DNA of 64,000 nt from Pyrinomonadaceae bacterium (GTDB lineage: Bacteria > Acidobacteriota > Blastocatellia > Pyrinomonadales > Pyrinomonadaceae): contig JACMJZ010000012.1 of NCBI GenBank assembly GCA_014380365.1, positions 186,001-250,000 on the forward strand, read 5' to 3'. Under the pieces are notes generated by a model. The model was not told the DNA's origin. It was given only the letters and a program-made list of their open reading frames with translations, and searched no databases. The position numbers were made by a program, and so were the translations under genes. This document shows, piece by piece, positions 30,657 through 41,692 of the stretch; the stretch's first letter is position 1, and each line of letters starts with the position of its first letter.

Positions 30657-33245
30657 GTGAATATTGAACGCCCTTCTCAACCACGACAATCAACACGCTT
30701 ACGCAGCTGTTTTCCCGCAGAATTGTTTTTCTGGTTGGTCAAGCCCCTGGCGCCGCTCGCAATCGCTCTCGTTTTGTTTACTCCTGGGACGAGCCTCGCT
30801 GCGACCAAACGGCTCGTAATCATCAAAGTCGACGGTTTGCCTTACAACCTTCTGGACACGTTTGTGCGTGAACGCGATCCACGGTCCGGCAAAAGCAAGT
30901 TGCCATGGATAGACCACATCTTCTACCAGCGAGGAACTCGCCTGGCTAATTTCTACGTGCGCGGCACAAGTCTCTCCGCGCCTTCGTGGTCGTTGCTGGA
31001 GACGGGCCAGCACCTTCAGGTCAAAGGCAATGTGGAATTTGATCGCTATACGCTTCACGCCTACGACTACCTCAATTTCATGCCGTTCTACTTTAAGAGC
31101 GCTGCGGGCGCCCGCATCGACATGCCGGGCGTGGAGGTGCTTGATTCGCTCGGTCTGCCGCTGCTTGCCGACGCCTTTCCCCATGAACAGCGTTACATAG
31201 GTTTCCAGCTTTACCAGCGAGGCATGCGTTTCAATACGCTTAAGGAAGCCTTGCAGAAACGGTTTTTGAAAGATCCGCGAGAACTGATGGACGAATGGAC
31301 AATGGGTTTTGAAACGCGCAGTACGTTCTTCGATCAGATGGAACGCGAGCTAATCCAAAAACTGGTCGACCGGAACGTTCGTTATCTCGATCTTTATGTC
31401 ACGGGCTTCGATCATGTCGCTCACCACAATCGGGATCGGCGATCGCATCTCTTTGAACTGGCAGAGATTGATAGCCTGATCGGACGTATCTATACCGCGA
31501 TTGAAAAGAGCGAAATCGCCGACGAGACCGCCCTGGTCCTCGTTTCAGATCATGGCTTCAACACGAATGAGCAGATTTACAGCCAGGGTTACAACCTGGT
31601 GAAGTTGCTTGGCAGCGCCGTCGGCGGTGGTCATCACGTCATCACTAAGCGCCGGCTGATGATGAAATACTCAATCAAGGGCATGAATTTCATGGTTCCC
31701 CTGATAACGACGACCACGAACGAGTCGTTCTATCTGAAAGGCGAAAGCTCCGCTTATCCGACTGCTCTCCTGGACTTCGATGGCAACGAGCGCGCATCCA
31801 TACACCTGCGCAACAGCGACTTGAATCTACTTCATATTCTTTTGCGTGAGCTCCAGCGAAACAATCTGTCTCCAGCCCTTCGGAGCGCAATAACCGCTTC
31901 TTTTTTCGATGCGGTCGATTCGCGGCGCGTCGACTGGCAGAACAATCTGCATGAACTAAACGAAGAACTCGTTGTTTTGCGCAGTCGCATTGAGCGCCAG
32001 CGCAAGTTATGGGAAGCAGAACCGAAGAAGTTTACTCCTGAAGAAATCGGACTAGGCAGGGACGATCAGAAGAAGCGTGTCTTCACACAACTGGAAAAAT
32101 GGGTGAGCCAGGAGAAAGAATACACCGAGTACGCGCGAACTCTCGCCAACCTCCTGGCGCTGCGCAGGGAAAGTTTCAATCCTTCAAAGCTAAAGGTTGA
32201 GGACATAATCGCCAGGAATGCGATGGGCGAGCGCAATAGCATTTTCCAGTTGCAAAACTATATTGTCGGCGTGGCCCCTGGAGGGTTGCTTTTGAACTCC
32301 GACAACTCCCTGGATCTCAACAAGAGCTTTACGCGAGTAGACTATTTCTCTCTATTGCAAGGCATCAGCGTCCGAAACAATGTGCAGCGCAAAGTAGCAA
32401 ATCGGCCGATTGATATTATCGCTACCCGCATTGCGTCGGATCTGGTTCTGTCAAAGTTGAAAGAGCAAGCGATCCATCCTGATGTGATTTGGCTGAACGG
32501 CGGTCCCGAAAAGCAGGCGTTGATTCTTGGACGCACTGACGCCCAGGGACATTTGAGCTTCCGATACCTGCCAATAAGAAACCTTTTGCAGGATGCGTCA
32601 GGACAGGTGCGATTCGAGCACACGCCCTGGCAGCCGGGCCTGCCGCTGCGCATCTTCGAGGACAGCCAACTTGAAGTTGCAGCTAAGGACCGGGCGACAT
32701 GGCTCAGCGAATGGCACACGGATGTTGAGTGGCTCCGCGCACTGCACCGCACGGAATACTCCAACGGACTGATAGGACTCTTTGAAGAAGTCGCACATCA
32801 TGGCTTGCCCTCTTTGTCACCGGAAGAACCCGGTATTTCTGCCGACGAGCGGCTGGCGCGGCGGTACCTCAAGCGTCAGCGCGAACTCATCGAAACAGAT
32901 CTGCTCTTGGTGGCCAACAACCATTGGAACTTCGATGTGCGTGGTTTCAATCCCGGTGGTAACCACGGTTCCTTCTTTCGTATTTCAACCCACTCGGTAT
33001 TAATGCTGGCGGGAGGCAACAAGACCGGTATCCCTCAAGCCGCTGTGGTTGACGAACCATACGACAGTCTAAGCTTTCTTCCCACCTTACTAGCGTTAAC
33101 CGGAAATTTACGCGATGATAACAACCCCATTTCCACTCTGTGGGATAAAGGCTTTCGGCGTTTCCCCGGACGTCCAGTCAGAGAGATTTTGACTAACCGG
33201 GGGAACCGGCAATTCGCGGCAACGGGAGCAAATGTATCTCCTTGA
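30657..33245 (+). CDS. Type I phosphodiesterase / alkaline-phosphatase-superfamily protein
   Basis: GTG 30657 opens a signal peptide or anchor (PLAPLAIALVLFTPGTSLAA). The catalytic layout of the alkaline phosphatase superfamily is complete: IIKVDGLPYN (first Asp), RGTSLSAPSWSL (nucleophile Ser/Thr), LYVTGFDHVAHH (Asp and His), LVSDHGFN (Asp-His), and a distant GGNHGSFF near residue 770 (last His). A large helical insertion (about residues 400-560, EELVVLRSRIERQRKLWEAE) splits the core and makes it much longer (862 aa) than usual members. It probably cleaves a phosphodiester or phosphomonoester of a lipid or polymer in the periplasm. It overlaps the next start by 4 bp (TTGA), indicating coupled translation. 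Confidence 0.85.
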   Translation: MNIERPSQPRQSTRLRSCFPAELFFWLVKPLAPLAIALVLFTPGTSLAATKRLVIIKVDGLPYNLLDTFVRERDPRSGKSKLPWIDHIFYQRGTRLANFYVRGTSLSAPSWSLLETGQHLQVKGNVEFDRYTLHAYDYLNFMPFYFKSAAGARIDMPGVEVLDSLGLPLLADAFPHEQRYIGFQLYQRGMRFNTLKEALQKRFLKDPRELMDEWTMGFETRSTFFDQMERELIQKLVDRNVRYLDLYVTGFDHVAHHNRDRRSHLFELAEIDSLIGRIYTAIEKSEIADETALVLVSDHGFNTNEQIYSQGYNLVKLLGSAVGGGHHVITKRRLMMKYSIKGMNFMVPLITTTTNESFYLKGESSAYPTALLDFDGNERASIHLRNSDLNLLHILLRELQRNNLSPALRSAITASFFDAVDSRRVDWQNNLHELNEELVVLRSRIERQRKLWEAEPKKFTPEEIGLGRDDQKKRVFTQLEKWVSQEKEYTEYARTLANLLALRRESFNPSKLKVEDIIARNAMGERNSIFQLQNYIVGVAPGGLLLNSDNSLDLNKSFTRVDYFSLLQGISVRNNVQRKVANRPIDIIATRIASDLVLSKLKEQAIHPDVIWLNGGPEKQALILGRTDAQGHLSFRYLPIRNLLQDASGQVRFEHTPWQPGLPLRIFEDSQLEVAAKDRATWLSEWHTDVEWLRALHRTEYSNGLIGLFEEVAHHGLPSLSPEEPGISADERLARRYLKRQRELIETDLLLVANNHWNFDVRGFNPGGNHGSFFRISTHSVLMLAGGNKTGIPQAAVVDEPYDSLSFLPTLLALTGNLRDDNNPISTLWDKGFRRFPGRPVREILTNRGNRQFAATGANVSP

Positions 33246-35479
33246 ATACTTCACTGGCTACGCCTTCTGCCGAAGATGATCTGGCCCAGTGGCCTGAAGA
33301 TATTAGCGAGACCGAAATCCCCTCCGATGACGCGGAATCCGGGGGCCCCGACGGATCGCGTCGCTCCTTTATCTGGCTACAGGCCATCGCCTTTCTCCTG
33401 GGCCTTGGTCTTCTCATTTACGTCATTAACCGCGTCGGGCTCCAGCCCCTCTTCGACGCACTCCTGCGCATCGGATTTGGGTTCTTTATCCTCCTCGGGA
33501 TCAGCGGGCTGCGGCATGTGTTCCGCACAATTGCGATGGCTGCGGCCGTTCCGAAGGAACACCGTCGTTTCAATTTCTTCCTGGCATTTGCGGCTCGGCT
33601 GGGCGGCGAGGCAATTAGTTTTCTCACTTTTACCGGCCCACTCCTCGGTGAGGCAACCAAGGTGGCCCTACTGCGCAAGCGTGTGCCGCTAACTTACGGA
33701 GTGCCCGCGCTCGTCGTCGATAATCTTCTCTACAATCTCTCGGTGGTGTTTTTCATCCTCAGCGGCGCTACCGTAATGTTGTTCACCTACAACCTTCCGT
33801 CGCTCGTCTACTACTCCTTAATTTTTATTGCCATTATCGCCGCGCTCGGAATTGGCGCCGCCGGTCTCGCGGCGAAGCGCCGCATAATGCTACTGACCTG
33901 GATAATCGATCGCATGGCTCAATTGCGGCTGAGTCCAAAAGTAATCCTCAAACGGCGACAGCACATTTACCATCTTGAGTCGAAGGTTTACGATTTCTAC
34001 AAACACCATCCAGGCGTCTTTTTTGGCATGATTGCCTGTAACCTGCTCGCGCATGCCGCCAGCGTAGTGGAAGTCTTTGTCACCTTGCGTATGCTGGGTT
34101 ATGCGCCCCGGGTGGCGCAGGCCTATATCATTGAGTCGCTGACGAAGGTTATCAATTTCATCTTTGCGTTTGTCCCGGGTACGATCGGCGTCTATGAAGG
34201 CAGCACGGAGGTCGTACTGCAAACGTTGGGCTTCGCTGCGGCCACCGGCCTCGCTCTCGCCCTGGTGCGAAAAGCCGGTACTATATTTTGGACTTCGATT
34301 GGTTTATTGATCCTGACCTGGAGGACTGCGCCAAACGCGTGGCGTCGTCTTCTGGATCGCAGCCCACACTTGCAAAAGCTTATGGACAGTCTCGTACTTT
34401 CAAATATCGCACATAGACCAGCCCGCACGGCAGTCAGCATTCTGGGGACGGCAGTCGGAGTCCTGCTCATCATATTTACAGTCGGCCTGGCCCACGGCGT
34501 GCTGCACGAGCGTGGGAAACGCGAAGCAAACATCGGCGCTGAGATCATGATCCGCTCAGCCGGCACGCTCGGTTTCGGTGGCGCATCGCCATTCCTGTTA
34601 CCGGTTTCTCGCGCTGCGGAGATCGAAACCATCCAGGGTGTGCGCGCGGCCACGTCAATCGGCCAAACCCTTGACCGCAGCGACTCCGGATTTGGCACAC
34701 GCCTTCTCGACGGCATTGAGTTTCAGGACTACTCCCAACTGACCGGACTCAAGATTCGTGAAGGCGGGCCGCTCACTGGGGGCGATCAGGCGATCATGGA
34801 TCCGGAATGGCAACGGAACAGGAACGCGCGGGTTGGCGACACAGTTCAACTATTCGAGCGGCCGTTCAAGCTCGTCGGTGTTTATGAACCTCCCGGCGGT
34901 GGGCGACTTAAAATACCACTGGCCACGATGCAGGAGCAGATGGGTGGCGAAGGAAACTGTTCCGCGGTGCTGATTGCCTGCGCCGACCCCGGCCAGCAGG
35001 AGGAGGTCGCGGCCCGCATACGAGAACGTTATCCCGACGATCAGATAATTTTTACCCGCGACTTGCCGGAACTCTACGCGCAGGGCGTGCCTGCGCTTAA
35101 TGTTTTTATCCGCGTGGTCGTCGGCGTGGCTGCCTCGATCAGCATGCTGGTAATTTTGCTGGCGATGTACACCACCGTTACCGAACGCACTCGGCAGATC
35201 GGGATTCTTAAGGCGCTGGGGATGTCCAAGAGCGGGATCGCCTGGGTGATCGAACAGGAAGCGATTCTGGTCAGCGTGTTGGGAGTCGCGGTCGGCGTGG
35301 GCCTGACGTTCGTCGCGCGGTTCGTCATCATGCGCATGACGTCGCTGACCATTGAAATCGAACCGCAATGGATCGGGATTTCGTTTTTGGTGGGAATCGT
35401 TGGGGGGAGCATCGGCGCGCTCTACCCTGCCCTGCGCGCCGCCCGCCAGGACGCCGTCGACGCGCTTAGTTATGAGTAG
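33242..35479 (+). CDS. Fusion: flippase-like LPG_synthase_TM domain with MacB/FtsX-type permease
   Basis: After a short acidic cytoplasmic start (TTG 33242), residues 38-360 are a polytopic domain of the lysylphosphatidylglycerol synthetase TM/UPF0104 type (AARLGGEAISFLTFTGPLLG, FIFAFVPGTIGVYEGSTEVV), a group that includes lipid flippases. Residues 385-745 are a complete MacB_PCD plus FtsX module: SNIAHRPARTAVSILGTAVG entering the first helix, a ~220-residue periplasmic domain, then three helices with TERTRQIGILKALGMSKSGI. The two parts are joined without a stop or frameshift. No ABC ATPase is adjacent. The coupled phosphodiesterase upstream suggests a lipid- or lipoprotein-related envelope job. 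I know of no characterised protein with this architecture. Confidence 0.87.
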   Translation: MNTSLATPSAEDDLAQWPEDISETEIPSDDAESGGPDGSRRSFIWLQAIAFLLGLGLLIYVINRVGLQPLFDALLRIGFGFFILLGISGLRHVFRTIAMAAAVPKEHRRFNFFLAFAARLGGEAISFLTFTGPLLGEATKVALLRKRVPLTYGVPALVVDNLLYNLSVVFFILSGATVMLFTYNLPSLVYYSLIFIAIIAALGIGAAGLAAKRRIMLLTWIIDRMAQLRLSPKVILKRRQHIYHLESKVYDFYKHHPGVFFGMIACNLLAHAASVVEVFVTLRMLGYAPRVAQAYIIESLTKVINFIFAFVPGTIGVYEGSTEVVLQTLGFAAATGLALALVRKAGTIFWTSIGLLILTWRTAPNAWRRLLDRSPHLQKLMDSLVLSNIAHRPARTAVSILGTAVGVLLIIFTVGLAHGVLHERGKREANIGAEIMIRSAGTLGFGGASPFLLPVSRAAEIETIQGVRAATSIGQTLDRSDSGFGTRLLDGIEFQDYSQLTGLKIREGGPLTGGDQAIMDPEWQRNRNARVGDTVQLFERPFKLVGVYEPPGGGRLKIPLATMQEQMGGEGNCSAVLIACADPGQQEEVAARIRERYPDDQIIFTRDLPELYAQGVPALNVFIRVVVGVAASISMLVILLAMYTTVTERTRQIGILKALGMSKSGIAWVIEQEAILVSVLGVAVGVGLTFVARFVIMRMTSLTIEIEPQWIGISFLVGIVGGSIGALYPALRAARQDAVDALSYE

Positions 35480-35518: not shown

Positions 35519-38500
35519 TCACCGAGGAGGTGTGACCACCGGCTTGGCCAGCCTTTTAGCCATCTCATCCGCCAGCTTTCTTAACTCTTCTGCCTTCCGC
35601 TTGTCACCCAGAGCCGAATAGACGTAGCTCATCGTTGCGATTACGGATGATTCAGCACTCTCCAGGCCGGCGCCGCGATATGCCACGCGCGCCCCTTCGT
35701 ACAAATCGAGCGCCTTTGCCTTGTCACTGAATGAATAGGAACTGCCCGCAACTTCAAGGTAAGCGCCATGGAGAACCATGTTTCGCGCCTGGCCAGCGGC
35801 TTCGGCTTCACGAAGAAAATAATCCACCTGAGAAGTTCCTGGGTTTTGTTCCACATCCAGGGCCCCAAGCTTCCTGAGTAGTTCGAGCAACGGCGAGAGG
35901 TGCTTGTTGTTAGCATAGAGAGACCTCGCCTGAGCGTATTGACGGCGCGCCTCAGGCTTATCACCATGATTCTTATAGAGGTCACCCATAACAACTATCA
36001 CCGAAGCCTCGGCCTCGGTATTCTTCTCACGTCGATAGACGTCGAGCACCTTTTGGAATAACTGCCGAAGCCTGGTCGTTGCCTCCTCCGTCTTCATGTT
36101 GAGAAGCAGCGCACCCTCCAGCCTAAGTATGTTCTCGATGTTATAGACACTCTTAGCCAGCACTTCCCTCTGAAGCTGCTCTTCATAGATCTCAAAGGCT
36201 TTTTCCTTATCGTACTCCGCGTAGAGCCCGGCGATGATCAGCAGATTCGATGCCTTGTTATACTTTTCGCCGGGGCCCTCTTTATCCGGATCAATCTGAC
36301 GGTATGTCCTCCGCGCAGCTTCGAAGGAACTCGTAGCTGCCACAAAATCCTTCGCTTCGTTTTGTATCTTGCCGATCTCCAGGAGCGCGTTGCCCTCCTC
36401 CACGAACTTACCGGCCTGGCGCCAGATTTCGCGCTTCCGGGACAAATAATCAATCGCCGCGTCAGTCTCCCCTTTGCCTTTATAAAATTCTCCGATCAGC
36501 GTAAAGGTTCGTGCCTTAAGAACAGGGTCGTTACCAACGCTAGCGATGGCTTCCTCAAAGAACTGATTCGCCCTTTCTTTCCCGCCCGATGCATACAACA
36601 GATCCGTGACCTTCTTCCCCATTTCTTCCGCAATGAACACACTATCGCCTTTTCGTTTCGGTTCCAGAACAGCCTTGATGAAAGCTAAAACTGCTTCCTT
36701 GGAGTAAGCGAGTTCTTTGTCTTTGTCTGCTAATGCTCCGTGGAGTTCAGCCAGCTTGCGGGCAATGAGCCCCTGCTTCCGAAAACTTTTCGTCTGTTGA
36801 AAAAGACCCCGGGCGCGTTCGAAATAACGAATCGACTCTTGCATCCGTTCCGGGTGGTCTTTGGAGGCTTCTTCATAAACGTCGCCAATGCGTGCCAGGA
36901 CCGTCGCTTCCTGCAAAGTATTGTTGGCTTGTCGAAAAGCGGCGCTTGACTGATCGTAAAAGTCGACCACCCTCTTCAATTCGCTGTCAATGTCCGGTTC
37001 CGTTTGTTGGGCTACTTCTGGCGTCCCGTCGTCGGTTTTAGCAGTCGACTTCCGGGACAGGTTCTTCGACAGATGATCGGCAATTTTTTTGAGCACCTCT
37101 GCCTCATCTGTATGGAGTTTCGCCGACTTGTAGGCCGTACGGGCGTCAGTGTAATACTTGATGCCACCCATCATCTCGGCAGCAATTTTCTCTTCGTCTG
37201 GTGCCGCTTCATCTTTGGCTGCTGGCCCGCTGCGTTTCATTTCAGCTAGACCAATCTGTAGGTCACCCAGATTTTCAAGTAGGTTTGCATCCTTCGCGGC
37301 ACGGTCCTTGCCGCGATTACCTTCGTTGACCTTTAGGGCCCGACTGTATAAACCTGCCGCTGTCGTTGCCTCGTTCACAATTCCCTCCATGGCAACATTG
37401 TTGTCCTGAGACTCCATGGTTTGTAGCACTTGAAAATACTGCTTCATCATCTGGGCTTCTACATCGTCGTCTCCCAAAGATCCTGGTCCTCGAGATCCTG
37501 GTCGGTTAATCTCTGATAACAACAACAAAGGCGCACGGTCCCGGTGAATGTCGGCTATATCTGCCAGGGCGGAAGACTCACCAGAAGGATTATTCATCGT
37601 ACGGTGAATCTGGCTTAGACCGCTGAAGATAGTAATCGCTGTATCAGCATCCCCTTCTTTTAATGAGCGTAGAGCCTCTCCTTCCTTGAGGGCGTTGCCC
37701 GCCAGAATAAATTGTGCCTCGGCCTTCTTCTTCTGATCGAGCGCCTCATTCTTAGCTGATTCAGCCAGCTTCGTCTGGGCGAGCGCGTCGTCCTTCGCCT
37801 CGTCCGCCGCCTTCTTATCACGGAGCGCGCCGGCGAGCGCTGCCTCTCTCGCAACGTCAGCCAGCTCTTTCTGTGCGCGGGCTTCAGCTTCCCGCTCGTC
37901 AGCTATCTTCGCTTGAGCAAGCGCCCGATCCTTTGCAGCGTTTTGAGCGAGCGCCTCATCCTTTGCCAAGTCTGCTTTCACCCGTTCAGCGTCAGCTTTT
38001 CCCTTAGCGCCATAAGCGTAGACGCCCATCCCGAGCGAAAAGAGGAAGGCCACGCCGAAAACCAGCGCGGTGAGGCGGCTGCGTTTGATCTCTCTTCTGC
38101 TCCGGGCTTCTTCAGCAGCCTTGGCCGCATCGCGTGCGGTTACGCTTTGGTCCAGGAAGGCTTGAGCCAGGGCAAACTCCGGATGGTAACGCCGCGCCCA
38201 CACCTCGTTTGGTTTCCCCTGGTCACGCCACGTCAATGCTATTTGCAGATCGGGGTCGCCCCACAGGCCCGCGTCACCTTGCTTGTGCAAGACCGCGGTT
38301 TCGGCCACCCGACGATAGATGCGGGAGGAGCGCGCTTCCTCATCGACCCAGTCTTTCAAGCGCACCCAACCGCGTATCAAGCTTTCATGAGAGATATCGA
38401 CGAGTGATTCCGAATTCAACACCACGGGCACCGGGGGCATCAGAAAGGAGCGACCCGGTCGACGGAAGGTTTCTATGACAGTGATGACTTCGACTTTGCC

Positions 38501-39640
38501 GGCATCGGTTAGATCGCAGATCTCACCTAGCGTGATCGGACGCCGAATCTCACGATTGTCGGGACCTTTTTCGGTCAGGGCCTTGAAGAGTTTCTCCGCA
38601 ACTTCGCGATGGTGATCATCCGGCAACTCGCTGTAAGCCTCGTCGGCGTGGCGGGAAAGCGCATTGACCATTCCGCCCACAGCTTCGGCACAACACAGAT
38701 CAATTTCCTCACCGCGGTGAACCTCTCTGTGCGGGCTTTTGATTACCTGTTCACCCTCCTGAATTTCAACTTCCAGCCGCTGTTCCGTTCTTTCGTTCCA
38801 GGAGCGCATTAGCAAGTGCTGCAACACGGGCAGCTGATCCTGGTTGTCGCCCACGTCGTTCAGGAGCCGATTAACCAAACGCGGCGAGATCTTCCCACCG
38901 CCCACTGCCACTGGCCCGGTAATCGCCTCGCGGAGTTGGTCGCGCGTCAGGCGTGGAATCAGGTATTGGCTTTCGTTGATTGCTTCAGGCAAACCCCAGA
39001 ACTGCGAGCAATCGCCGAGGTAGTCGGAACGCATAGTCAACACCACATAAATCGGAACCTCGCGCTGGGCGGAGGCTTCGAGCAGCAACTTGATAAACGC
39101 TGCGGCCTCGTTGCCATACTCTTCGCCTTCAGTGACCCTGGCAAAACGAAATATCTCCTCAAACTGGTCTACGACCACGAGCAGGTTCTCATCCTCAACC
39201 ATTACTGACTGGCGAGCGGTATCCACCAACCCCAGGCTGCCGCGCCTCAGAGTGGATTCAGCGATGGCAGTTTGAATAGCCGCGTTTTCTTCAAGCTCGG
39301 ATCCGAAAACGTCAGGACCATTCAGAGCGCGCGCCAGGTTGCCGATCGGATCATTGCCCGGACGCAGAATTGCCACGCGCCATGCGGAGCCGGCGCTGGT
39401 CATGAACCCACCCTGAAGCGCCGGCAAGAACCCCGCGCGCACCAGCGATGATTTGCCGCTGCCGGATGTGCCAACCACGGCCAGGAAATGAGTGCGGCTG
39501 AGTTTGCCAATCAACTGTTCGCTTTGGCCGTCGCGCCCGAAGAAGAGATGGCTCTCATCAAAGTCGAATGGACGCAAGCCGGGAAACGGGTTCGTTGAAA
39601 CCTGAATTTCGGCTGGGCTCTCAGGCGTTTGGGTGCTCAT
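35519..39640 (-). CDS. STAND-class NTPase with membrane helix, coiled coil and TPR array
   Basis: The N-terminus NPFPGLRPFDFDESHLFFGR is the signature opening of the nSTAND1 group. The Walker A GTSGSGKSS is at residues 57-65 and a Walker B-like NLLVVVDQFEEIF near 153. The STAND winged-helix part reaches about residue 500. A membrane helix follows at about 518-540, then an Ala/Lys/Glu-rich coiled coil (DEALAQNAAKDRALAQAKIA and repeats of that word) to about 660, and TPR-like repeats to the end. STAND proteins act as signal-gated NTPase switches, often in immunity or programmed death, with the TPRs sensing. It starts 4 bp inside the upstream TIR gene with a strong AGGAGG site, so the two are translated together. 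Confidence 0.9.
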   Translation of the reverse strand: MSTQTPESPAEIQVSTNPFPGLRPFDFDESHLFFGRDGQSEQLIGKLSRTHFLAVVGTSGSGKSSLVRAGFLPALQGGFMTSAGSAWRVAILRPGNDPIGNLARALNGPDVFGSELEENAAIQTAIAESTLRRGSLGLVDTARQSVMVEDENLLVVVDQFEEIFRFARVTEGEEYGNEAAAFIKLLLEASAQREVPIYVVLTMRSDYLGDCSQFWGLPEAINESQYLIPRLTRDQLREAITGPVAVGGGKISPRLVNRLLNDVGDNQDQLPVLQHLLMRSWNERTEQRLEVEIQEGEQVIKSPHREVHRGEEIDLCCAEAVGGMVNALSRHADEAYSELPDDHHREVAEKLFKALTEKGPDNREIRRPITLGEICDLTDAGKVEVITVIETFRRPGRSFLMPPVPVVLNSESLVDISHESLIRGWVRLKDWVDEEARSSRIYRRVAETAVLHKQGDAGLWGDPDLQIALTWRDQGKPNEVWARRYHPEFALAQAFLDQSVTARDAAKAAEEARSRREIKRSRLTALVFGVAFLFSLGMGVYAYGAKGKADAERVKADLAKDEALAQNAAKDRALAQAKIADEREAEARAQKELADVAREAALAGALRDKKAADEAKDDALAQTKLAESAKNEALDQKKKAEAQFILAGNALKEGEALRSLKEGDADTAITIFSGLSQIHRTMNNPSGESSALADIADIHRDRAPLLLLSEINRPGSRGPGSLGDDDVEAQMMKQYFQVLQTMESQDNNVAMEGIVNEATTAAGLYSRALKVNEGNRGKDRAAKDANLLENLGDLQIGLAEMKRSGPAAKDEAAPDEEKIAAEMMGGIKYYTDARTAYKSAKLHTDEAEVLKKIADHLSKNLSRKSTAKTDDGTPEVAQQTEPDIDSELKRVVDFYDQSSAAFRQANNTLQEATVLARIGDVYEEASKDHPERMQESIRYFERARGLFQQTKSFRKQGLIARKLAELHGALADKDKELAYSKEAVLAFIKAVLEPKRKGDSVFIAEEMGKKVTDLLYASGGKERANQFFEEAIASVGNDPVLKARTFTLIGEFYKGKGETDAAIDYLSRKREIWRQAGKFVEEGNALLEIGKIQNEAKDFVAATSSFEAARRTYRQIDPDKEGPGEKYNKASNLLIIAGLYAEYDKEKAFEIYEEQLQREVLAKSVYNIENILRLEGALLLNMKTEEATTRLRQLFQKVLDVYRREKNTEAEASVIVVMGDLYKNHGDKPEARRQYAQARSLYANNKHLSPLLELLRKLGALDVEQNPGTSQVDYFLREAEAAGQARNMVLHGAYLEVAGSSYSFSDKAKALDLYEGARVAYRGAGLESAESSVIATMSYVYSALGDKRKAEELRKLADEMAKRLAKPVVTPPR

Positions 39641-41136
39641 AGCGTCCCTCCTTTTGCTTTCCAGATGCGCTCGGTGAATTGTTCAAAAGGCAGAGGATCG
39701 AATTCCCCGTAGTTCTTGATAACCAGGGCTTCCCGCGTTTTGAAACGCTCTTTGGGCGGTGACTCCGGCGCGGCCACGTAAATCGCCTTCTCTAGCAGCG
39801 GAGTTGTCCGTCCATAACCCGGCAGCTTGAGCAATTCGCGCAGCTTCATGCGCAGCCAGCCCTCACTGGCACGGCCCTGGAAAATCAGCACAGCGTCGCA
39901 TATCAACAGGTTGTCCTTGTGGTCCTGGAAAACTTCCGCTTCGCTTCCCTCCCCCAGCGGCAGAGTCACTTCGCAACCCCGATCGAAGAGATAATCTTGC
40001 AGTGGAGTTACAGCCTCAACGTCAGACTGATCGCAAATCAAATAAATTCGACTCGCTTCGCTCACTACTGGGGGCAGTTTAGGTTTTTGCGTAAGTTTCG
40101 TCTGAATAATGGTTTTCAGGTCTTCCAGTTTGACCTGGAGCAGTTCGGAGCCATTGTGAGAAGTGAAGCTATTCTGCAAGTCAATGACGAACTTCTGCTG
40201 CCGGGGATCTGTCGGCTGTAAACCCGGAGGCATCCAAATCAACCTGGAAAACTGCGCGTCGTCTCCCCGCTCCATAGCCAGTTCCTCTTGCATGCGAACG
40301 ATGGAGCGTTCAGTCTCCTGTTCAGGAATGGATCCGTAATTCTCTCCAATCAAGTGAACCGAGAGCCGGCTGCGCTTCAGATAGTCGCGCACCACTTCCT
40401 GCAACGGAGGCGCTTCCTGAGGCAGGGCTTTGTCAGGCAGCACTTCATGACCATGCTGCAACAACTCGCGCTTGACCTTGTCGCGTTCTTCGCGGAGGTC
40501 GGAAGTGGTTTCAGCCAGGTAGATGGTAGCGCCGGCACTGGCTGGTTCAGGCGGCTGGGGGCCCTGGTCCTCAACCATTCGTTTCAGGAGATAGGCGATA
40601 TCCTGCGCCAGGTCCTCAAACTTCTCCCAGTATCTCTTGTCCTTTTCACCCTTCGGGCCGATCTCATTGTCGTACTCGCGGAAACGGCCGGACGCCTTAT
40701 CGAGAGCATAGAATTCATAGCCAAGCATGTCCCGCAGTTCGGACGGGTGCTCTTCGAGAGGCACAAAAGTCTTCACAACTTTGAAGACCCGGTGTTTGTC
40801 GTTGACTCGAAGTCCGCCGGTCTTATCCGCCGCAGTGTAGAAAATTTTAAGCTCCTCCTGGCAGGATGATGAAAGGTAATAGCGCGGTGATACTACGGCG
40901 ATCAAGATGGCGGCGTTGGAAAGTTCAATAACAATGGTGTCATTAAAAACGTCGTTGCCGCCCAACTTACGGTCACGCCAGATTTTCACAGGCTCGCCCA
41001 TTAGTTGGGGCAGGCGCCAGTCCAACGCTTCATGCAACAGGTCTATCCAGCCCTTTTCGACTTCGCTGAAACCGGCGTTGTCGATGTGGGCGTAGCTGAT
41101 AAACAGATCGTTTTCGTAGCTGAACTTAGCGCTCAT
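39637..41136 (-). CDS. TIR - DUF4062-like - TIR-like protein
   Basis: Residues 7-165 are a TIR domain: DLFISYAHIDN is the first strand, and SPRYYLSSSCQEELKIFY contains the glutamate in the position used by NAD-cleaving TIRs (SSCQEE). Residues about 200-300 resemble DUF4062 (IYLAETTSDLREERDKVKRE), which often accompanies STAND proteins. Residues about 365-495 form a third, TIR/flavodoxin-like alpha-beta unit (RIYLICDQSDVEAVTPLQDY) without an obvious catalytic Glu. The ATG has GGGAGG upstream. The gene overlaps the STAND NTPase gene by 4 bp. The likely model is that the STAND protein senses and oligomerises, and the TIR either consumes NAD or makes a nucleotide signal. Confidence 0.87.
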   Translation of the reverse strand: MSAKFSYENDLFISYAHIDNAGFSEVEKGWIDLLHEALDWRLPQLMGEPVKIWRDRKLGGNDVFNDTIVIELSNAAILIAVVSPRYYLSSSCQEELKIFYTAADKTGGLRVNDKHRVFKVVKTFVPLEEHPSELRDMLGYEFYALDKASGRFREYDNEIGPKGEKDKRYWEKFEDLAQDIAYLLKRMVEDQGPQPPEPASAGATIYLAETTSDLREERDKVKRELLQHGHEVLPDKALPQEAPPLQEVVRDYLKRSRLSVHLIGENYGSIPEQETERSIVRMQEELAMERGDDAQFSRLIWMPPGLQPTDPRQQKFVIDLQNSFTSHNGSELLQVKLEDLKTIIQTKLTQKPKLPPVVSEASRIYLICDQSDVEAVTPLQDYLFDRGCEVTLPLGEGSEAEVFQDHKDNLLICDAVLIFQGRASEGWLRMKLRELLKLPGYGRTTPLLEKAIYVAAPESPPKERFKTREALVIKNYGEFDPLPFEQFTERIWKAKGGTL

Positions 41137-41410: not shown

Positions 41411-41463
41411 TACTTTCGCAAGGTTTGAGACTCATGCATTCCCCTGGGCACAAAGGTTGTTGA

Positions 41464-41565
41464 CCTCTCTGCGTTACTCGGCGAGTCTCTGCGTCTCTGC
41501 GGGTAAGTGTGTTCGCAGCCATATTAACCACCGAGTCGCAGAGAACGCGGAGATTACCCAGAGAA
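41464..41565. repeat. Word-tandem inverted repeat, family G
   Basis: The left arm at 41464-41505 (CTCTCTGCGTTACTCGGCGA and so on, word TCTCTGCG) pairs with the right arm at 41525-41565 (ACCGAGTCGCAGAGAACGCG and so on). It occupies the plus-strand side of the 556-bp divergent gap 41137-41692, 128 bp before the zinc-ribbon gene. Confidence 0.8.
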
Positions 41566-41692
41566 GAATTTCAAATTAGGGCACTACAGGGCAAAGCCCG
41601 GACTGACCGCCGTTCATTATTTCATTTATACTGAATTGACGTGTCAGCAAGAATCAGCCGGTGAAACCCGCCGTGGCCAATGAGGAATCAGA

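Follow-up and report, generated by a model that had tools for sequence, protein, structure and literature searches.

A conserved pair of genes encoding a three-domain TIR protein and a putative membrane-spanning nSTAND1 receptor

The stretch of DNA analysed here (the window, 64,000 nt; positions 186,001 to 250,000 of contig JACMJZ010000012.1, assembly GCA_014380365.1) comes from a Pyrinomonadaceae bacterium of the Acidobacteriota and contains two adjacent genes, here called A and B, which encode a TIR-type protein and an nSTAND1 NTPase:

39637..41136, minus strand: gene A, 499 amino acids (aa), with a TIR domain, a DUF4062 domain that has lost its Glu and a third TIR-like domain
35519..39640, minus strand: gene B, 1373 aa, with an nSTAND1 domain, a single transmembrane (TM) helix and a variable C-terminal sensor tail

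Both genes are intact, with an overlap of 4 bp (ATGA). By eye, GGGAGG stands 6 nt upstream of the ATG of A and AAGGAGGG 5 nt upstream of that of B. The coordinates, frames, overlap and ribosome site before each gene reported in an earlier note, made from the letters alone, were thus borne out, as was its reading of the two genes as a multi-domain TIR/STAND pair like those of conflict systems (TIR_2 and DUF4062 in A, nSTAND1 in B). The window copy consists of A and B alone. Each gene is present once in its own genome (4.98 Mb, 34 contigs), in which the sole further match to B is weak and confined to the tail.

A profile built from seven A proteins retrieved 228 relatives, the best 80 of which were kept as loci for the counts given below. 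An nSTAND1 gene, the counterpart of B, lies directly downstream of A in 78 of these 80 loci, at a median of 21 nt from the A stop to the STAND domain (range -14 to 181). Furthermore, the A and B distances were correlated across 73 loci (r=0.85; maximum of 1000 permutations 0.12), and this correlation together with the adjacency argues that the pairing is not due to chance. The 73 loci in the tree are spread over ten phyla. In an earlier set of 14 regions, four of them shared with the 80, both genes were found in 12; of the exceptions, L026 reaches the contig edge right after A and L037 has only partial A-like proteins. In the reverse direction, 22 nSTAND1 proteins of a class sample (window included) matched the B profile. 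Eight scored at least 644 bits, namely seven adjoining A and one starting at the contig start, and the next score was 192 bits, a gap which, with A beside seven of the eight, marks B out as a member of a separate nSTAND1 clade linked with A. The two loci of the 80 that lack the downstream gene, L112 and L113, have a pair of another make-up without a STAND gene, a TrkA-N protein of the type called X below followed by the TIR-DUF4062-TIR protein (L112:8031-11500, L113:8025-11497). An nSTAND1 protein with a TM helix and without an adjoining A occurs at L164, in a genome of the same genus (G197).

Gene A encodes three domains of related fold, as follows:

40570..41121, minus strand: domain 1, TIR (aa ~6-189), Pfam TIR_2 at aa 37-107 (5.4e-11)
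40852..40854, minus strand: E95, the Glu at the TIR catalytic position, E in 55/55 aligned A proteins
40081..40539, minus strand: domain 2, DUF4062, of nucleoside-N-glycosidase/TIR-like fold (aa ~200-352), Pfam DUF4062 at aa 205-281 (3e-9)
40288..40290, minus strand: Q283, in the column of the DUF4062 catalytic Glu, Q in 53/55 and E in 2/55
39637..40071, minus strand: domain 3, of TIR/glycosidase-like fold without the Glu (aa 356-499), from AlphaFold2 and structure comparison
39844..39846, minus strand: K431, replacing the Glu in W427-x3-K431, K in 51/55 and never E

The 55 rows of the alignment are the window protein and those of 54 of the 80 loci. AlphaFold2 returned three alpha/beta domains with a mean predicted local distance difference test score (pLDDT) of 89.1 and a predicted template modelling score (pTM) of 0.49, a value that leaves the packing of the domains unsure. 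Residues 9-189 align with the SPARTA TIR (Z 15.8, root-mean-square deviation 3.0, 138 residues aligned), and domain 2 (~200-352) aligns with DNPH1/MilB-type nucleoside N-glycosidase chains (Z 12.4-13.0). Domain 3, without a Pfam match, reached a mean pLDDT of 93.3 when modelled alone and scored Z 11-12 with DNPH1 and TIR chains; its assignment rests on the fold plus the W-x3-K motif, since a receiver domain and other alpha/beta folds also score ~11. With respect to the FxsC TIR-like family, A fell below the NCBIfam NF040588 cut-off (39.7 vs 130 bits).

By its sequence, domain 1 is a catalytically competent TIR. The claim that the TIR keeps its catalytic Glu therefore holds for this first TIR, in which E95 is invariant, and not for the other two TIR-like domains. 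The middle domain, described earlier as DUF4062-like, does match DUF4062; according to the accessible parts of PMC13174449 this is a described TIR-like NADase domain, and in A its catalytic Glu has been lost. Inspected by eye, this column contains Glu in 24 canonical DUF4062 domains taken from genomes of the family. Gln takes its place in the first set of 14 A proteins and in four A-like proteins (L060-L063), the row of L064 being unalignable, and the PDB chain of KpSwz (the E97A form according to PMC13174449) has Ala in the column aligned with Q283. DUF4062 was also considered as the active NADase of A, a role ruled out by the Gln (Q283) in the Glu column. Taken together, A is predicted to consist of one active and two inactivated TIR-like units. 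Its own genome (G000) holds seven DUF4062 matches counting A, on contigs C1, C7, C8, C20 and C30, five of them in open frames of 964-1081 aa.

The features of the B protein are:

38282..39589, minus strand: nSTAND1 NTPase domain (aa 18-453), Pfam PF20703 (1.3e-91)
39449..39472, minus strand: P-loop GTSGSGKS (aa 57-64), found in the sequence, motif in 77/78 relatives
38018..38074, minus strand: single predicted TM helix (aa ~523-541), N-side flank RSRREIKRSR, from hydropathy
35519..38017, minus strand: TPR-bearing C-terminal region, predicted extracytoplasmic sensor, Pfam TPR_12 (7e-11), PADLOC TPR (2.7e-8)

The match to PF20703 (308.5 bits, cut-off 27.1) includes an intact P-loop, and a DQ[FLY]E-type Walker B motif is present in 74 of 78 B relatives, some of the misses being cut sequences. 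With a plain hydropathy window, 69 of 78 B sequences were called as having a TM helix after the STAND domain. Of the remaining nine, eight stop at a contig edge before that point; the other, L142, has a tail of another kind and is the sole complete B without a TM helix at this place. All 56 complete B proteins that have the post-STAND helix have exactly one. Lys and Arg residues flanking it average 6.0 on the N side vs 3.1 on the C side; of the 69 sequences, 59 have more of them on the N side, three have fewer and seven have equal numbers. A single helix with positive charge on its N side predicts that the STAND domain is in the cytoplasm and the tail beyond the inner membrane; for the window protein, the side of the tail is predicted from the charge rule in its relatives. 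In L142 (L142:11548-15120), nSTAND1 is followed by a TIR, a TM helix, CHASE2 and then more hydrophobic segments. Since CHASE2 domains act as sensors outside the cytoplasm, this tail fits the same topology. We thus regard an extracytoplasmic tail as more likely than a tethered cytosolic sensor. The P-loop, membrane helix and TPR noticed in the earlier note are all there; of its membrane-tethered TPR sensor the helix and the TPR stand, and the changes are the likelier side of the tail and the standing of TPR as one of several interchangeable tail types.

The tails of B vary among the relatives, with WD40, TPR, lectin-like (Laminin_G_3 in L090) and TIR-CHASE2 types. WD40/beta-propeller models match 33-35 of 55 complete tails, TPR and others match further tails, and those of L105, L117, L134 and L145 are without a Pfam match. 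Where a gene of outer-membrane type adjoins B, its kind goes together with the tail type. One such gene, Y, encodes an N-terminal signal-like stretch. Of five copies tested, all matched the TonB plug and three the TonB barrel. Y starts -31 to +11 nt from the B stop in 21 loci; in L076, Y also lies close behind B. In other loci the gene beside B is W, which encodes a signal-like stretch and a Phe as last residue (5 of 6 copies listed); of three W copies scanned against Pfam, two gave no match and that of L101 gave outer-membrane barrel matches. When the tails of 55 relatives were sorted by means of two home-made profiles, whose seeds included some of these tails, a WD40 tail occurred with Y in 20 loci and with W in none, and a TPR tail with W in seven and with Y in none (Fisher p 1e-6, relatedness ignored). 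L094 was excluded from the WD40-Y count, its Y-like match being weak (100 bits) and upstream. As to orientation, Y of L080 is upstream and on the other strand, and W of L097 and of L123 is on the other strand. Within the Acidobacteriota alone, five WD40-Y and six TPR-W loci were counted, without crossover. A large membrane-type protein, Z, is encoded in 17 of the 80 loci, downstream of Y in 16, and one of four copies tested matches a TLC ATP/ADP transporter (1.1e-6). This copy, L028:1238-4390 on the minus strand, also matches HEAT repeats, and the copy L091:17215-19734, from a Mucilaginibacter locus with the order X-A-B-Y-Z, matches no Pfam family.

Upstream of A, about one third of the relatives have a membrane gene of the ryanodine receptor (RyR)-like/TrkA-N or the SLATT type. 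The former, gene X, lies directly upstream in 24 of the 80 loci, all of them Bacteroidota by title or tree, and encodes hydrophobic N-terminal segments (by eye) and TrkA-N (8/8 copies scanned). Compared with structures, the X profile matched TrkA-domain channel proteins (4gx5, which we take to be GsuK, 1.4e-10) and, weakly, a ryanodine receptor (0.0056). A SLATT/DUF4231 gene is found upstream of A in L075, L084, L114 and L146, and weakly so in L087. An upstream gene was called in 78 loci; in 50 of them it lies on the same strand within 400 nt, and in 24 of these 50 it is X; the upstream genes examined besides X and SLATT are mixed, some of them metabolic. In L144 (Verrucomicrobiales), a potassium-channel-type gene (L144:8133-9887; Ion_trans_2, TrkA-N, TrkA-C) lies 111 nt upstream of A. 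In the parts of the two sources that could be consulted, SLATT was proposed as a nucleotide-signal-responsive pore (PMC7159879) and phage RyR-domain proteins bind or degrade 2'/3' cyclic ADP-ribose (PMC13232231), which, together with the position of X or SLATT upstream, suggests that A may make an ADP-ribose signal in the relatives that have either gene.

Two further features of the window flank the pair. The intergenic sequence at ~41430-41580, upstream of A, contains repeated and inverted words of the CGCAGAGA/TCTCTGCG type, by eye resembling a dispersed repeat, and a single open reading frame at 33242-35479 on the plus strand combines a lysylphosphatidylglycerol-synthase-like TM region with a MacB/FtsX permease.

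The conserved operon, the domains, the two lost Glu residues, the single TM helix, its charge bias and the pairing of sensor and outer-membrane-type neighbour tip the balance slightly towards A and B forming one switch, in which an inner-membrane STAND receptor, B, would activate a cytoplasmic TIR protein, A. For this switch we infer a topology, a trigger, oligomerisation, contact between A and B, NADase activity and an outcome. B would be held in the inner membrane by its one TM helix, with the nSTAND1 domain in the cytoplasm and the C-terminal sensor outside, where in many relatives the sensor would be matched to the linked outer-membrane-type protein. Phage adsorption, envelope damage or a ligand are candidate triggers that could engage the sensor, upon which the STAND domain would bind ATP and oligomerise, thereby clustering A in the cytoplasm. 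The first TIR of A, through E95, would then cleave nicotinamide adenine dinucleotide (NAD+), leading either to its depletion or to an ADP-ribose-type signal, and DUF4062 and the third domain may serve as non-catalytic docking or assembly pieces. Where an RyR-like/TrkA-N or SLATT protein is encoded upstream, it could be the reader of this signal, with the membrane as its target; the two-gene version of the window probably acts by NAD+ loss. As a tentative extension, possible at best, the whole may constitute a trans-envelope immune or stress receptor of Toll-like logic, in which an outer-membrane protein and an exchangeable exported STAND sensor respond to events beyond the inner membrane, for instance phage adsorption, and signal to a cytoplasmic TIR, the ADP-ribose product of which is read by the RyR-like/TrkA-N or SLATT protein.

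Several observations weigh against this interpretation. TPR and WD40 domains are usually cytoplasmic. A TM helix after nSTAND1 was also seen in some proteins without A (others have none) and is therefore partly a family trait and not unique to the A-B pair. The pairing of tails and outer-membrane-type neighbours is confounded by descent. Nine WD40 tails and one TPR tail have neither Y nor W, and the 17 unclassed tails divide into four with Y, one with W and 12 with neither, counts on which it bears that some contigs end soon after B. At the window copy itself there is no X, Y, Z or W neighbour, and its tail was left unscored by both home-made sensor profiles. In its own genome a search for W came back empty, a result that proves little in that setting, and a search for Y gave weak matches to the plug region only. 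With such neighbours missing and the own-genome matches absent or weak, the outer-membrane link may not apply to the window copy. With regard to the signal, the C-terminal RyR match of X was obtained in 5 of 8 copies and lies below the Pfam cut-off (best 6.4e-5); no RyR match was found for X of L122 and L112, nor, at a stricter threshold, for that of L091.

Alternatively, A and B could be an antiphage STAND system acting inside the cell by the logic of Avs, with a cytoplasmic tail that binds a phage protein, oligomerisation of B and killing by the TIR of A through NAD+ loss, the hydrophobic segment being a mere tether or no true span. We consider this unlikely. TIR, STAND, TPR, SLATT and RyR are parts known from conflict systems, as far as the accessible parts of PMC7159879 and PMC8195603 go, and presence is patchy: 15 of the 396 genomes sampled from the phylum gave a match, counting the own genome and three matches that are partial, as did 14 of the 210 genera sampled. 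However, the positive-inside bias around a single helix and the outer-membrane-type neighbours matched to the tail of B speak against a cytoplasmic sensor. The neighbourhoods weigh against the antiphage reading: a PADLOC defence scan of 121 of 208 eligible near neighbours, made without a control set, matched 37 families in a scattered manner, including, among the matches listed, IetA (4), HEAT-ARM_XIII (3), TRIP13 (3), a phospholipase effector, RTasPolA, BrxHI and mad2 (2 each) and singles such as Csx1 and PtuB. Among the neighbours are two ordinary family A DNA polymerases, which may account for the pair of RTasPolA matches. The survey of homologue neighbourhoods for defence genes proposed in the earlier note thus turned up SLATT, RyR-like/TrkA-N and outer-membrane-type genes in relatives, and known defence genes as scattered occurrences. 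Furthermore, a scan of viral contigs found no relative, phage records gave no match and plasmids gave two weak matches covering 55% of A; common carriage of A on mobile elements or phages was ruled out by these searches. The tree of A requires 11 changes of phylum label (minimum 9, shuffle mean 39.6), indicating inheritance that largely follows phyla. Given the scattered defence neighbours, the near-absence from phages and plasmids and this tree, we do not claim an antiphage role.

The same inheritance by phylum and the near-lack of association with mobile elements, together with the TonB-plug and transporter-like neighbours, would suit a non-immune role in envelope signalling or stress, in which an outer-membrane receptor, together with the inner-membrane STAND protein, monitors nutrients or the state of the envelope and the TIR protein is mainly an adaptor or makes a regulatory nucleotide. 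We find this doubtful in view of the invariant TIR Glu, the SLATT and RyR-like partners and the patchy presence. Finally, a system of the Swarozyc kind with DUF4062 as the executioner NADase, for which the DUF4062 match, the membership of this domain in a TIR-like NADase family (within the accessible text of PMC13174449) and the Glu retained in two of 55 A proteins could be cited, is highly improbable with Gln in the other 53, window included, no auxiliary-type domain by Pfam and a STAND protein as the conserved partner.

To our knowledge, the bacterial STAND/NLR-type immune proteins that have been studied experimentally sense phage proteins inside the cell. If the reading of A and B as one inner-membrane switch is true, they would couple the envelope to NAD+ signalling in a distinct way, through a STAND switch that senses beyond the inner membrane and works with an outer-membrane protein and a cytoplasmic TIR. 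A would then be a natural example of a TIR protein in which one TIR-like unit is active and two are inactivated, and the RyR-like gene beside a TIR gene would make the long-standing question of RyR and ADP-ribose signals testable in bacteria.

A literature search of titles and abstract openings (subscription papers and supplementary tables were mostly outside its reach) gave no description of an A-B pair among the matches listed, in line with the suggestion of the earlier note that the architecture may be undescribed. The following comparisons refer to the accessible parts of the cited papers. The nSTAND1 systems of Kaur, Burroughs, Iyer and Aravind 2021 (PMC8195603) share the NTPase clade with B, and TIR effectors and C-terminal sensors are named there; their effectors are fused or joined by adaptors, whereas a separate TIR-DUF4062-TIR or outer-membrane partner was not found there. 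Swarozyc (PMC13174449) and A both have a DUF4062 with a TIR-like fold. Swarozyc needs the DUF4062 Glu (E97 of KpSwz) and a portal-binding auxiliary domain, whereas A has Gln there and its Glu on a separate TIR; for such a portal-binding winged domain A gave no Pfam match, and a direct comparison with the auxiliary domain of KpSwz was not made. The STAND sensors diversified by diversity-generating retroelements in multicellular bacteria (PMC10907252) combine nSTAND1 or NACHT with C-terminal sensors, as does B, but these are lectin-type and changed by the retroelement, and an A-type or matched outer-membrane partner was not found there. One target, which has NACHT and lectin domains, is itself predicted by the authors to be periplasmic, so that an extracytoplasmic STAND-linked sensor alone is not new. 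In the beta-propeller MoxR-vWA systems (PMC7159879) the NTPase differs (MoxR) and no TIR-DUF4062-TIR partner is found there.

PADLOC, with a library of 2023, matched B to TPR, mad3 and mad8 only. In Avs, the effector is fused N-terminally and the sensor is cytoplasmic; here, in contrast, the effector, A, has a gene of its own, and B is predicted to span the membrane. Avs, as described in PMC10907252, has in common with B a STAND switch whose C-terminal sensor varies and is often TPR. As in Thoeris, a TIR would make an NAD-derived signal for a separate responder in the relatives with X or SLATT. Unlike in Thoeris, no ThsA lies beside A and the constant partner is a STAND protein: the ThsB profile matches A weakly (5e-4), B has no SIR2 or Macro match and B is the sole gene joined to A, hence no ThsA. 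In FecA-FecR, a TonB-type outer-membrane receptor adjoins an inner-membrane protein with a periplasmic part. This layout of outer-membrane receptor and inner-membrane protein resembles that proposed here for A and B, the output of which would be a STAND/TIR module instead of a sigma factor.

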